Of a stretch of 64,000 bases of DNA, positions 24,249 through 31,039 are shown piece by piece. The stretch comes from Oxalobacteraceae bacterium OTU3CAMAD1 (lineage in GTDB: Bacteria > Pseudomonadota > Gammaproteobacteria > Burkholderiales > Burkholderiaceae_D): positions 7,068,001 to 7,132,000 of the forward strand of contig CP099650.1 of assembly GCA_024123915.1 (NCBI GenBank), in the 5' to 3' direction. The stretch's first letter is position 1; each line of letters starts with the position of its first letter. The translations under genes and the position numbers were made by a program. The notes below the pieces were generated by a model. That model saw nothing but the letters and a program-made list of their open reading frames with translations, made no database searches and was not told where the DNA came from.

Positions 24249-24594
24249 GATGAGTTGTACAAAATACATGAGTTGCCAACACGACTATACCGGCATCGAT
24301 CCCGCCATCGCGCAATTGGCCGATCTGTTTCACCTGCTGGGCGATCCGACCCGCTTGCGCATCGTGCTGGCCTGCGTGGCGGCGCCGATCGCCGTCAGCG
24401 ACATCGCCACCTCCCTTGAACTGAGCAGCTCCCTGGTGAGCCACCACTTGCGCTTGCTGCGCGCGGCGCGCATTGTGAAGTCCGAGCGACAGGGCAAGCA
24501 AGTTTTCTACTCCGCCGCCGATGCGCATATCAGCGACGTCCTGAACGATATGCTCGAACATATCGCCGAACCTGCCAACGGGAACGAAGCATGA
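24247..24594 (+). CDS. ArsR/SmtB-family metal-sensing repressor
   Basis: Up to 115 residues. Winged helix with [16 protein letters not shown] and [28 protein letters not shown], the recognition helix of the family (here [19 protein letters not shown]). Cys4, Cys9 and the Cys-Gln-His at 9-11 could be metal ligands. The operator dyad overlaps the first ATG (24247), so translation more likely starts at 24250 or 24268 (MSCQHDYTG, 108 residues); no clear Shine-Dalgarno decides between them. Stop overlaps the exporter start (ATGA). Expected to release DNA on binding Zn, Co or Ni and so induce the downstream exporter. Confidence 0.88.
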
Positions 24595-25652
24595 GCAAGC
24601 ACCACGACCATCACGACCACGATCACGGCCATGATCACGGCCACCACGATCATGATCATGAGCACGGACATGATCACGGACATGCGCCCGCCAAGCCCGC
24701 CGTAAAAGGCCACTCCCACGATCACGGTCATGGGCATGGGCACGATCACGCGCACGGCCATCACCACCACGGCGATCCCAACACCATGGGCCGCGCCTTC
24801 GCCATCGCCATCGTGCTCAACCTGGCCTTCGTCGGCATCGAATTCTTCTACGGTTTCCTGGCCAACTCCACCGCGCTGATGGCCGACGCCGGCCACAACC
24901 TGTCCGACGTGCTGGGCCTGATGCTGGCCTGGGGTGCGGCCATCCTGGCCAAGCGCCTGCCGAACCAACGCTACACCTACGGCCTGCGCAGCACCTCGAT
25001 ACTGGCCGCGCTGTTCAACGCGATGCTGCTGATGGTCGCCTGCGGCGGCATCGCCTTCGAGGCGGTGCAGCAACTGGCCCATCCAGAGCCGGTGGGCGGC
25101 TTGACTGTGTCGGTGGTGGCCGGTGTCGGCATTCTGGTCAACGGTTTCTCGGCGTGGTTGTTCATGTCCGGGAGCAAGGACGACATCAATATCCGTGGCG
25201 CCTATCTGCATCTGGCCGCCGACGCCGCCATCTCGCTGGGCGTGCTGGTGGCCGGCGTGATCGTCCGCTTCTCCGGCTGGAATTGGGTCGATCCGGCGGT
25301 CAGCATGGTGATCGTTGCCATCATCGTCTACAGCACCTGGTCGCTGCTCAAGCAGTCGCTGCGGATGATGCTGGCGGCCGTGCCGGACAATGTGGACCGG
25401 GGCGAGATCGAGCGGTTCCTGCGCGAGCGGCCGGGTGTGACCGAGGTGCACGACCTGCATATCTGGGCGATGAGCACCACCGAGACCGCGCTGACCGCGC
25501 AGCTGGTCACGCCGGGGGGTTATCCGGGCGACGTGGCGGTTGATGACATTTCCCGGCAGCTGCGCGAGGATTTTTCGATCCAGCACAGTACCTTGCAGGT
25601 GCGGCTGGGTACCACCGTGCATGAGTGTTGTTTGCAGGAGCCGGCGCATTAG
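24591..25652 (+). CDS. Cation diffusion facilitator with His-rich N-terminus
   Basis: 353 residues. The first 62 residues hold 28 His in Asp/Gly/His repeats, a cytosolic metal-gathering tail. Six membrane helices follow, with the Zn-site pairs in [10 protein letters not shown] and [12 protein letters not shown], then a C-terminal ferredoxin-like domain ([25 protein letters not shown]). Exports Zn(II), Co(II) or Ni(II) from cytoplasm in exchange for protons. Overlaps the ArsR gene by 4 bases and shares its operator. The DmeF/ZitB-like His tail favours Co/Ni/Zn, but the metal cannot be fixed from sequence. Confidence 0.92.
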
Positions 25653-27505: not shown

Positions 27506-28351
27506 TTAAAGCGGCTCCAGTGCCGCCTGCGCGCCATCGGCCAGCTGCCGCAGCACGTGGCCGGCGGCGACCATGCCGAAGGTGGCCGTGACCACCATCG
27601 CCGAGCCGAAGCCGGCGCAGTTCAAGCCGGTCACGCCGCCGGCGCGGTCGTCGCCGTCCACCGCGCACACCTCGCCCGTTTCGGGAAACTTGAGCGGCTC
27701 CATCGAGAACACCGCATCCACATGGAACTTGGTTTTCTCGCCGCGCGGATAGCCGTACTGGCTGCGCAAGACCTTGCGCACCTTTTTCAGTAGCGGTTCC
27801 TGCTCGGTGCGGGCCAGGTCGCGCACGGCGATCTGGGTCGGGTCGGTCTGGCCGCCGGCGCTGCCGATGATGACCAGCGGCAGCGCGTGCTGGCGGCAAT
27901 ACGCGATCATCGCGGCCTTGGCCTTGACGCTGTCGATGGCGTCGACCACGTAGTCGAACTTGCCGGCGCCTATCATCTCGTCGAGATTGTCGGCGCTGAC
28001 GAAGTCTTCGATCTGGTTGACCACGCAGTAGGGATTGATCTGCCCGATGCGCTCGGCCAGCGCGCTGATCTTGGCCTGGCCGACGGTGCCGGTCAACGCC
28101 TGGATCTGGCGGTTGATGTTCGATTCGGCCACGTTGTCGAGGTCGATCAGGGTCAGTTGGCCGATGGCGCTGCGGGCCAGCGCCTCGACGATCCACGAGC
28201 CGACGCCGCCGACGCCGACCACGCACACGTGGGCGCCACGGAAGCGCGCCAGCGCGCGTTCGCCGTACAATCGGGCGATGCCGCCGAAACGGCGGTCGAA
28301 GTCGATGGCGTCCGGGCCTTGGTCGACATTAAGGTCAGAGATACTGTTCAT
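27506..28351 (-). CDS. tcdA: tRNA threonylcarbamoyladenosine dehydratase
   Basis: 281 residues. E1/ThiF/MoeB fold: CVVGVGGVGSWIVEALARS (ATP loop), LIDLDNVAESNINRQIQAL (Asp and Arg for adenylation), VVDAIDSVKAKAAMIAYCRQ. Length and GYPRGEKTKFHVDAVFSMEP match TcdA/CsdL. Converts t6A37 in tRNA to its cyclic form using ATP. The partner step of t6A formation, tsaC, lies elsewhere in this window (39290). Divergent from the hemerythrin-PdxH gene. Confidence 0.93.
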   Translation of the reverse strand: MNSISDLNVDQGPDAIDFDRRFGGIARLYGERALARFRGAHVCVVGVGGVGSWIVEALARSAIGQLTLIDLDNVAESNINRQIQALTGTVGQAKISALAERIGQINPYCVVNQIEDFVSADNLDEMIGAGKFDYVVDAIDSVKAKAAMIAYCRQHALPLVIIGSAGGQTDPTQIAVRDLARTEQEPLLKKVRKVLRSQYGYPRGEKTKFHVDAVFSMEPLKFPETGEVCAVDGDDRAGGVTGLNCAGFGSAMVVTATFGMVAAGHVLRQLADGAQAALEPL

Positions 28352-28424
28352 CCCGCCATTTTACCGGACGCGGCGACAAGAATTATTCTAGAATGACTTT
28401 CCCACCCAGCCTGAGCCCCACGCC

Positions 28425-29672
28425 ATGAGCAACGCAGCAACTAATTCCCTGTTCGACACCGCCCCCGACTTCAGCCAGCCGATAGCAGTTTTGAAACATT
28501 GCCACGACCGTATCCGCAAGCAATTGTTGACGATGCAAAACCTGCTGGCCCACCTGCCCGCCCACGGCGCCGATTCCGAGGCGCAAAAAGCCGCGCAGGC
28601 CGTGCTCAAATATTTCAACAACGCCGCCCACCTGCACCATGACGACGAAGAGCAGAACCTGATGCCGATGTTGCAGGCCACTGCCCGCGACGCCGACGCC
28701 GCGCTGCTCGACGAATTGGTGCCGGGCATCCTGGCCGATCATCAGGATATGGACAAGGACTGGGAAATCGTCCGCGCCCAACTGGAAAAAATCGCCGCCG
28801 GGCACAGCGCCGAACTGTCCGCGCCGGACGTGCAGCGCTTCTGCGACGCCTACGCGGCCCATATGGCCAAGGAGGAAGCCAACATCGCGCCGATGGCCAA
28901 GCGCCTGTTCAGCCCAGAGCAGATGGCGCAACTGGGCAGCGCCATGCAATTGCGACGCGGCATCACGCCCGAACTGCCGCAAAGCCAGGTGCCTGAACAG
29001 CAACAGGTCGCCGTCGCCAACGCCGTGGCCGACGGCGTGGTGCTGGCCGATCTGCGCCTCGATTACGGCCGCGCCAGCCTGACGGAAGCGGACGTCCTCG
29101 ATGACCCGATCGCGCAGTTCGGCAAATGGTTCGACGAAGCGCTGCACGCCAAGGTCAACGAGCCGAACGCGATGAGCGTTGCCACGGTGGGCGCCGACGG
29201 CAGGCCGACTTCGCGCATTGTGTTGATCAAGCAATTCGACCAGCGCGGCTTCACCTGGTACACCAACTACGACAGCCAGAAGGGACAGCAATTGCGCGAC
29301 AACCCGCACGCGGCGCTGCTATTCTTTTGGAACGAACTCGAGCGTCAGGTGCGCATCGAAGGCAAGGTCGTCAAAACTTCGGCCGAGGAAAGCGATCAAT
29401 ACTTCTATAGCCGGCCGGTGAAAAGCCAGATCGCCGCGATCGCCTCGCGGCAGAGCGCGCCCGTCGCCAACCGGGAACAGATGGAAGCCAATTACGATGC
29501 GGCGGCCGCCGTCAGCGGCGAGCATCCGGTGCGGCCGGAACACTGGGGCGGTTACCGCCTCGAACCGGTGCGCATCGAATTCTGGCAGGGGCGCCGCTCG
29601 CGCTTCCACGACCGGATCGTGTATGTCAAACAGGCAGATGGCAGCTGGATCAAGGAGCGCTTGCAGCCGTAA
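28425..29672 (+). CDS. pdxH: Hemerythrin-like domain fused to pyridoxamine 5'-phosphate oxidase
   Basis: 415 residues in one frame. Residues 15-170 are a hemerythrin/HHE four-helix domain with the di-iron ligands in place: His25, His72-x3-Glu76, His106 and His146-x3-Glu150. A linker (178-205) leads into a full-length PdxH (about 205-415): [49 protein letters not shown] (FMN), [18 protein letters not shown] and the closing [18 protein letters not shown]. PdxH oxidises pyridoxine/pyridoxamine phosphate to PLP with O2 and releases H2O2. No stop or Met lies at the junction; a GTG near 29038 could in principle start a separate PdxH. Followed by a terminator at 29709. PdxH is normally about 215 residues, so the fusion is unusual. 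Confidence 0.9.
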
Positions 29673-29708
29673 CCACGGCACGCGAACGCGCGCCGATTCG
29701 GAAATCCA

Positions 29709-29733
29709 GACCATCGCTTGCGGTGGTCTTTTT
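29709..29733 (+). terminator. Rho-independent terminator of the hemerythrin-PdxH gene
   Basis: GACCATCGC-TT-GCGGTGGTC (one G-T pair) followed by TTTTTATTT. It ends 22 bases before the cfa start, so cfa needs its own promoter or read-through. Confidence 0.8.
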
Positions 29734-29755
29734 ATTTCTGAACCGGAGGTGCATC

Positions 29756-31039
29756 GTGTTAGCACAAGTGTTCGTACAAAATCGCTTCAGCGCCTGGATC
29801 GCCGGCATCCGGCGGCAGATCGCGCTACCGCTGCGCATTGAATTATGGAACGGCCAGTGCGTCGACTTTTCCAGCGAGGCGCCGCGCGTGACGATACGCC
29901 TGCCCAACGTGTCGGCCGCGCGCTACCTGCTCAAGCCGTCGCTGGCCAACCTGGGCACGGCGTATGTCGAAGGCGCGATCGAGGTCAAGGGCGCGGCGCG
30001 CGACATGATCGCCGTCGTCAACGCGCTGGCGCGCACCACGCTCAAGCCCGAGCGCAAGTTCTCGCGCCTGGCGCGCGGCATGAAGCACGACAAGCACAAG
30101 GACGCCGAGGCGATCCGCTACCACTACGACGTCTCCAACGATTTCTACGCGCAATTCCTCGATCCCAACATGGTCTATTCCTGCGCCTACTTCGAGGACG
30201 GCGACGAGGACCTGGCCGCCGCCCAGCTCAAGAAGATCGACCACATCCTGCGCAAGATCGCCCTGCGACCCGGGCACACCTTGCTCGACATCGGCTGCGG
30301 CTGGGGCGCGCTGGTGATCCGCGCGGCACAGCAATACCGGGTGCGCTGCGTCGGCGTCACCCTGTCGGAAAACCAGTGCGCGCTGGCCAGGCAGCGCGTG
30401 CGGCGGGCCGGGCTCGAGCACCTGGTCGAGATCCGCCTGCAGGACTACCGCGACGTGCGCGGACAATACGACCGCATCACCAGCGTCGGCATGTTCGAGC
30501 ATGTCGGCCTGCGGCATTTGCCGGAGTATTTCGCCGCCATCGAACGCCTGCTGGCGCCGGACGGATTGGTGATGAATCACGGCATCACCTCCACCGATGC
30601 AGATAACGGCCAGACGCCCTATGGCGGCGGCGAGTTCATCGACAAATACGTTTTCCCGCATGGCGAGCTGGCGCACGTGGGCAGCGTGCTCAAGGCGATG
30701 CAGCAAGGCGGTCTGGAGGCCTACGACGTGGAAAACCTGCGCCGGCACTATGCGCGCACGTGCGCCATCTGGACCGACAATTTCGAAGCGCACGCCGAGC
30801 GCCTGCGCGCGCTGGCCGGCGACAAGCGCTACCGGATCTGGCACGTATATCTGGCGGGCTGCAGCTACGCGTTCGAGCAGGACTGGATCAGCCTGTATCA
30901 AATCGTCGGCCACAAGGCGGGGCAACGCAGCGGCACGTTGCCGTGGTCGCGCAAATACATGTACCCGGCCACGCCAGGCCCCGTTTTGGCATCGGACACG
31001 GACGACCGCTCAGGCGCGGAGACACGTAGGGCGGATTAG
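29756..31039 (+). CDS. cfa: Cyclopropane-fatty-acyl-phospholipid synthase family methyltransferase
   Basis: 427 residues from GTG 29756, chosen because CCGGAGGTGCATC is ideally spaced; the frame is open 11 codons further up but that overlaps the terminator. HYDVSNDFYAQFLDPNMVYSCAYF, LLDIGCGWGALVIRAAQQY (SAM site), GVTLSENQ and SVGMFEHVG are CFA-synthase motifs. Transfers a methylene from SAM to cis double bonds of membrane phospholipids. The final codons (CGT AGG GCG GAT TAG) come from a palindromic repeat, so the C-terminal RRAD and the stop are repeat-encoded; the catalytic domain ends well before. Confidence 0.9.
   Translation: MLAQVFVQNRFSAWIAGIRRQIALPLRIELWNGQCVDFSSEAPRVTIRLPNVSAARYLLKPSLANLGTAYVEGAIEVKGAARDMIAVVNALARTTLKPERKFSRLARGMKHDKHKDAEAIRYHYDVSNDFYAQFLDPNMVYSCAYFEDGDEDLAAAQLKKIDHILRKIALRPGHTLLDIGCGWGALVIRAAQQYRVRCVGVTLSENQCALARQRVRRAGLEHLVEIRLQDYRDVRGQYDRITSVGMFEHVGLRHLPEYFAAIERLLAPDGLVMNHGITSTDADNGQTPYGGGEFIDKYVFPHGELAHVGSVLKAMQQGGLEAYDVENLRRHYARTCAIWTDNFEAHAERLRALAGDKRYRIWHVYLAGCSYAFEQDWISLYQIVGHKAGQRSGTLPWSRKYMYPATPGPVLASDTDDRSGAETRRAD

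Follow-up and report, generated by a model that had tools for sequence, protein, structure and literature searches.

Why should the enzyme that completes vitamin B6 coenzyme synthesis carry a hemerythrin-like di-iron domain in the same chain? The question is raised by a gene in a 64,000-nucleotide stretch of the genome of Oxalobacteraceae bacterium OTU3CAMAD1 (GenBank assembly GCA_024123915.1, contig CP099650.1, positions 7,068,001 to 7,132,000 of the forward strand; here "the window"), where one reading frame encodes a hemerythrin (Hr) part followed by PdxH, the pyridoxine/pyridoxamine 5'-phosphate (PNP/PMP) oxidase. In Escherichia coli, the last step of pyridoxal 5'-phosphate (PLP) synthesis is carried out by a PdxH without a hemerythrin-like domain; in the genome of the window, unlike E. 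coli, the only recognised PdxH copy carries a conserved, putative di-iron domain. Comparative sequence evidence indicates that Hr and PdxH, encoded by separate neighbouring genes in related bacteria, form a single conserved chain in the Duganella-Massilia group. The best explanation, which as a whole we hold tentatively, is that a coupled gene pair fused and that the tethered di-iron centre would dispose of the hydrogen peroxide (H2O2) made by its partner.

Anatomy of the Hr-PdxH frame

The frame is open from its ATG with no internal stop (Table 1), and the claim of the first-pass annotation that an Hr domain and a complete PdxH share it is borne out by profile matches above cut-off and by conservation in relatives. 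Pfam Hemerythrin (PF01814) matches residues 19-158 at 48.9 bits against a gathering cut-off of 25.3, and the model of this domain (predicted local distance difference test score, pLDDT, 94.8) shows four long helices and a short fifth. On the PdxH side, PNPOx_N (96.4 bits, residues 236-359) and PNP_phzG_C (70.1 bits, residues 374-415) are joined by the NCBIfam pdxH equivalog TIGR00558 (262.3 bits, cut-off 180); the PhzG model stays below its cut-off (score 175, cut-off 270). All six active-site positions are present, K269, Y326, R330, S334, R393 and H395 corresponding to E. coli K72, Y129, R133, S137, R197 and H199. In published work on the E. coli enzyme, a variant whose active site is impaired carries mutations at K72, Y129, R133 and H199, and a part in binding and catalysis is ascribed to R197. 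Across 90 distinct fused proteins (sampling is described below) the PdxH active site is kept, save two single exceptions, as are the metal ligands. We consider it nearly certain, from profiles and alignments, that an NMB1532-like di-iron HHE domain and a complete PdxH, its active site intact, are encoded in one open frame.

The PdxH C-terminal family occurs at one place in the 7,481,272-base single-contig genome, namely the fusion, which is the sole PNP oxidase recognised in these 7.48 Mb; a profile search of the same genome did not find the PdxS family. Hr matches in that genome number four, this domain included. The closest named relative is Duganella sp. CF517 (94% protein identity). In E. 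coli PdxH the PLP allosteric site includes Arg23/Arg24, which are Thr/Glu in the fusion. Loss of these arginines was rejected as a cause of the fusion, since 28 of 28 relatives with split genes lack both as well, and of 11 PdxH-only relatives none has Arg aligned with Arg23 and two have it aligned with Arg24.

The putative di-iron ligands, mapped by MAFFT alignment to E. coli YtfE, are H27, H71, E75, H106, H146 and E150; by hhalign, the Hr profile and YtfE gave a weak match of just 25 aligned columns (probability 5.5). H106 and H146/E150 had been listed by the first-pass annotation too, and its His25 and His72/Glu76 give way in this alignment to H27 and H71/E75. The pattern H-HxxxE-H-HxxxE is present in all 90 fused and all 28 split proteins. 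H25, H72 and E76 are likewise invariant, but NMB1532 of Neisseria has Ala at the H25 place. Residues 150 and 151 are both Glu.

Three further positions deserve mention in their own right. Residue 110 (28752-28754), one turn past H106 and at the fifth-His place of O2-carrying hemerythrins, is Asp or Glu in 90/90 fused proteins and acidic in 16/28 split ones, which could reflect shared ancestry or an altered metal surrounding. Cys26 (28500-28502), between H25 and H27, and Tyr63 (28611-28613), eight residues N-terminal of H71, are invariant in the 90 fused and 28 split proteins and retained in NMB1532. A Tyr serves as ligand in mycobacterial Hr-like proteins, according to the part of the source available (PMC8913304).

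The two domains are joined by a stretch that appears free to vary. An AlphaFold2 monomer of the whole chain, computed with a 90-row alignment (A1) picked from the examined loci, gives two confident domains in an undefined arrangement (predicted template modelling score, pTM, 0.54), and residues 186-205 fall below pLDDT 50. From residue 150 to residue 234, the 90 fused proteins span 64 to 102 residues, always in frame. Median ratios of nonsynonymous to synonymous change (dN/dS; up to 250 pairs at 80-97% identity) are 0.184 for Hr, 0.085 for the Hr tail (161-180), 0.308 for the linker and 0.090 for PdxH; such values indicate that the fusion is maintained under purifying selection. GC content at third codon positions is alike in Hr (0.81), linker (0.81) and PdxH (0.82), and at first positions it is 0.88 in the linker versus 0.67 in Hr and 0.65 in PdxH.

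Is the chain made as one piece? Translation begun at 28425 runs into no stop codon and should yield the full chain, and any use of internal starts would leave that product in place beside a shorter one; synthesis of the full-length protein is therefore very probable. The earlier remark that the junction has no Met is true of the linker proper (about 181-206), but M167 (28923) and M174 (28944) are in-frame ATGs just N-terminal of it; the GTG placed near 29038 exists and is really a pair, 29037 and 29040, with further in-frame GTGs at 28989 and 29025. Among the 90 fused genes, ATG, GTG or TTG occurs at most six codons before residue 207 in 60 and anywhere from Met174 to Tyr214 in 80 (ATG in 21), and a Shine-Dalgarno-like match of at least 4 bases precedes some start-like codon of the scanned stretch in 46. 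The main start has no strong Shine-Dalgarno sequence either (-1.9 kcal/mol, background mean -2.8), so Shine-Dalgarno strength does not discriminate between the starts. A separate PdxH as sole product of an internal start is not favoured: ten of the 90 genes (L016, L022, L025, L029, L069, L074, L075, L081, L095 and L097) have no start-like codon between Met174 and Tyr214, the invariant Met174 lies in the Hr tail helix that stand-alone Hr proteins share, and in GC-rich genes of this kind Val is routinely encoded by GTG. A second, shorter PdxH begun at an internal GTG or another start-like codon may nevertheless be made alongside the long chain.

Table 1. Features of the Hr-PdxH locus (positions in the window).
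Feature	Position	Strand	Basis or remark
Hr-PdxH fusion gene	28425..29672	+	415 residues, stop included in coordinates; same frame in relatives
Hemerythrin (HHE) domain, residues 19-158	28479..28898	+	Pfam; ligand map to E. coli YtfE; invariance; models
End of fourth helix and C-terminal tail helix of Hr part, residues 159-180	28899..28964	+	Conserved in stand-alone proteins too; dN/dS, model
Linker, residues 181-206	28965..29042	+	Length and sequence vary among relatives; predicted disordered
PdxH (pyridoxine/pyridoxamine 5'-phosphate oxidase), residues 207-415	29043..29669	+	Pfam, NCBIfam; active-site residues kept
Terminator-like hairpin then T-run, 3' of fusion gene	29708..29729	+	9 pairs
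CMAS (cyclopropane synthase family) methyltransferase with N-terminal DUF7884	29723-31039	+	Downstream of fusion

Terminator-like sites number four in the region scanned, against a mean of 2.0 in shuffled sequence, and no sigma-70-like promoter was found in 28200-29900. Elsewhere in the window, the frame at 24591-25652 (+) has a very His-rich N-terminus followed by a part that resembles, by eye, a cation-efflux transporter.

Distribution and origin of the fusion

The family sample comprised 294 genomes, 276 with a match, and fused frames were counted by hand among the matches listed. An uninterrupted frame spanning both parts is found in 102 of the 294; in 20 more, both parts lie in one match interrupted by one to three stops, and outside those 20 the pair appears as two separate matches in further genomes (for example G028 and G063). 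Every sampled genome of the window's genus carries the fusion (26/26, its own included), and fused frames occur in eight genus codes (g1, g2, g4, g6, g10, g12, g19 and g20). Two g12 genomes are harder to read: G222, whose sequence equals locus L092, has runs of N and its Hr part and remainder in different frames, and in G238, an assembly 48% complete, the matches are four in number and weaker.

Classification of 149 loci yielded 104 fused, 34 split (L092 among them) and 11 PdxH-only. The 104 fused loci reduce to 90 distinct proteins, some genomes having entered via two collections; for ligand counts, the split set excludes L092 (assembly gap), L129 (Hr broken), L148 (contig end) and three duplicates, leaving 28. 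L139, to which a CTG start was assigned by script, was kept in the counts and omitted from the structure alignment. Named fused loci include Duganella, Rugamonas, Pseudoduganella, Massilia and Janthinobacterium; named split loci include Collimonas, Noviherbaspirillum, Paucimonas and a Herminiimonas assembly.

Wider scans place the pairing within this family. In the class scan (369 genomes, threshold 1e-60; 17 with a match) the fusion appears in the window's own genome only, with no other family member among the matches listed. In the order scan (349 genomes, 212 with a match) the full-length fusions (G000, G056, G079, G018) and split pairs among the matches listed all belong to the family. Five genomes of other families in which matches seemed to reach into Hr (G863, G872, G300, G717, G857) gave no convincing match to an Hr query (best E 1.8), and in G863 the upstream frame terminates before PdxH and does not resemble Hr. 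Hr orthologues as such are found in 107 of the 349 order genomes, eight of them from the family. Outside the family, none of the 52 genomes with both genes listed has them adjacent; by hand inspection they lie more than 100 kb apart or on different contigs, where adjacency is not strictly excluded. All-against-all comparison of neighbours at 14 stand-alone Hr loci outside the family revealed none common to more than a few. As far as sampled, the Hr-pdxH pairing is a trait of this family, and the fusion is a later step.

How the fusion arose is suggested by the split relatives, in which the Hr stop is followed by the pdxH ATG after about 1 to 75 bases; the two codons even share bases, in the form ATGA, at seven loci of Collimonas. 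The split Hr protein ends shortly past an AM-xRRxI-like motif, the split PdxH mostly starts at or near MSIADLRxDY, and in the fused proteins these two motifs border the linker. A divergent ThiF-like gene, which we take to be tcdA, lies upstream at 94/104 fused and 31/34 split loci, and a cyclopropane-synthase-type gene downstream at 89/104 and 22/34 (short flanks and contig ends scored as absent). Flanking genes are thus mostly kept in both states, which argues for the same place with only the junction changed. Because other family members have two adjacent genes, some overlapping as ATGA, the fusion probably arose once within the family from a coupled adjacent hr-pdxH pair.

The tree (82 rows: 43 of the 90 fused proteins, thinned at 87% identity, with 28 split and 11 PdxH-only) requires two changes of the fused state, or one if PdxH-only rows L107 and L141 are set aside, and a tree with all fused proteins in one clade is not rejected (p-value of the approximately unbiased test, p-AU, 0.80). 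L141 (G038, 1465-2139) is a PdxH with a short linker-like N-terminal extension that adjoins the fused group; Hr was not detectable at that locus, where the divergent ThiF-like upstream gene is kept (judged by eye), and L141 may be a fusion that lost its Hr part. A comparison with relatives had been proposed by the first-pass annotation and comes out in favour of the fusion: the sampled genus shares it, and some other members of the family have two adjacent genes. The two-gene arrangement with a stop between the parts, which was expected to speak against a genuine fusion, does exist in relatives, but on the tree these relatives branch outside the fused group, and their arrangement looks ancestral and not like the correction of an error.

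Possible roles of the tethered di-iron centre

What might the merged protein do? PdxH oxidises PNP/PMP using flavin mononucleotide (FMN) and O2, producing H2O2. To judge from sequence, the protein came from an adjacent, probably translationally coupled hr-pdxH pair whose stop was lost and whose spacer came to be read in frame. In the mechanism we prefer, a floppy linker would keep the tethered four-His/two-Glu di-iron centre close to PdxH, where it would dispose of or react with the oxidant released beside it by catalase- or peroxidase-type chemistry; FMN, the aldehyde of PLP, itself reactive, and iron proteins in the vicinity would thereby be spared. We infer that metal is bound at the di-iron centre and that this centre takes part in O2-derived chemistry beside PdxH. 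That such a centre in a B6 oxidase consumes or senses the H2O2 or O2 of the FMN reaction, protecting or pacing PLP synthesis, is a possibility to be held with reserve, and disposal of H2O2 in particular is somewhat doubtful.

Disposal of H2O2 is nonetheless preferred because PNP oxidase makes this oxidant and because a freely moving tether is better suited to scavenging than to allosteric control; a tether requires no fixed geometry and so fits a variable linker. It is also preferred because of Hr-like proteins of mycobacteria: one that has four His, two Glu and in addition a Tyr shows weak catalase and nitric oxide (NO) peroxidase activity, catalase activity is demonstrated for its relative Rv2633c (both PMC8913304), and an Hr protein of Mycobacterium smegmatis matters for H2O2 susceptibility (PMC4660385). 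Several observations weigh against it. Hr orthologues occur unlinked to pdxH elsewhere, and pdxH occurs without Hr: at L129 (G102, a 1.7-Mb genome; 179-1315) pdxH is intact and the adjacent Hr gene is broken by stops, which makes Hr dispensable there, and at L141 none was found. Relatives with intact pdxH and no Hr show that PdxH does not need Hr. The mycobacterial ligand pattern, moreover, is said in the part of the source available to be unlike that of Hr proteins of other sources (PMC8913304).

For these last reasons, the separate occurrence of Hr and pdxH and the differing mycobacterial pattern, a fusion without functional coupling is about as likely as H2O2 disposal, and itself doubtful. 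Neighbouring, partly overlapping genes would have lost a stop, each domain keeping its own job (iron/redox or NO-related for Hr, PLP synthesis for PdxH), and the product would be kept as harmless, fixing a 1:1 ratio. Ancestral-type pairs do have stop and start close together, down to the ATGA overlap, the linker is predicted to be disordered and free to vary in length, and Hr has diverged about 1.3 times as much as PdxH whether the pair is fused (median ratio 1.35) or split (1.28). On the other side, the pair adjoins in several genera that never fused, and the fused group contains no clear reversion to two genes (L141 perhaps lost Hr; the two g12 genomes are ambiguous). The acidic residue 110 of the fused proteins also speaks against independence, although shared ancestry could explain it as well.

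A regulatory role fares less well. As a gauge of redox state, oxygen or iron, the domain would act through its di-iron centre, whose oxidation or metal state would alter PdxH activity, dimer stability or turnover, and PLP synthesis would track oxygen or iron. The disordered, variable linker and undefined domain arrangement are poor for allostery, and loss of the allosteric arginines is not tied to fusion; we regard a gauge as unlikely. Tight obligatory coupling of any kind is argued against by the same variable, disordered linker and by relatives with intact pdxH and a broken or missing Hr.

The first-pass idea of a built-in O2 carrier or store feeding the oxidase is not borne out and is very improbable. 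PdxH does use O2, and McHr is said, in the part of the source available, to supply O2 to methane monooxygenase (PMC4919030). O2-binding hemerythrins, however, have five His, one Glu and one Asp as ligands (PMC9388753), whereas the fusion has a four-His/two-Glu set, with position 110 acidic and Glu at 150 and 151, and is therefore unlikely to be a carrier. Relatives in other genera do carry a stop between the two genes, but a base error that erased it here has a negligible chance: 90 distinct proteins, drawn from numerous assemblies, share the open frame, and their linkers stay in frame at many different lengths.

The family displays the stages adjacent, overlapping, fused and Hr lost, so that coupling of a flavin oxidase to a di-iron centre is testable by comparing natural fused and split forms. 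If it is true that Hr handles H2O2 or gates PdxH, B6 supply would be tied to oxygen or iron state, and a hemerythrin would be acting directly on a partner flavin oxidase within the same chain.

Comparison with known systems

Relative to E. coli PdxH (TIGR00558; PDB 1jnw, 1dnl), the fusion differs by its N-terminal Hr domain and by Thr/Glu at Arg23/Arg24. Its Hr part is related in sequence and fold to NMB1532 of Neisseria meningitidis (PDB 2p0n), a stand-alone HHE protein of unknown function; the solved chain of NMB1532 is unfused, has 172 residues, and shows Ala at the H25 place and a His aligned with position 110. Fold-search rows for designed proteins and vinculin were passed over, as they reflect mere helical bundles.

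Among di-iron proteins of iron-centre repair (YtfE/RIC), the YtfE ligands H84, H129, E133, H160, H204 and E208, so given in the accessible text of PMC9268430, align one to one with the six of the fusion. The N-terminal part of YtfE has little counterpart in the fusion's Hr (MAFFT alignment), and identity as RIC/YtfE was rejected (TIGR03652 26.9, cut-off 204.7), as was identity as the ribosome-binding persister protein PA2171 (NF053874 21.4, cut-off 190). With the mycobacterial Hr-like protein (Rv2633c homologue, PDB 6q09) the fusion's Hr gave no sequence match at E 10; that protein differs in its Tyr ligand and in the ligand pattern noted above, and, according to its description, is monomeric, has a fifth helix besides the usual four and carries no fused enzyme (PMC8913304, in part). 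The comparison with the mycobacterial catalase/peroxidase type covered fold and ligand count.

No description of a hemerythrin-PdxH fusion was found in titles and abstract starts of the open-licence literature, and the architecture may figure in S2 Fig of PMC4919030 or on Pfam/InterPro pages. Hr domains joined to other domains are already known, with 56 architectures for O2-binding Hr according to the accessible part of PMC4919030. The bacterial sensors DcrH, Bhr-DGC and Bhr-HD-GYP, as far as the available text of PMC9388753 describes them, resemble the fusion in joining Hr to another functional domain; their partners are signalling domains, whereas here the partner is a metabolic flavoenzyme and the Hr part lacks the five-His set.
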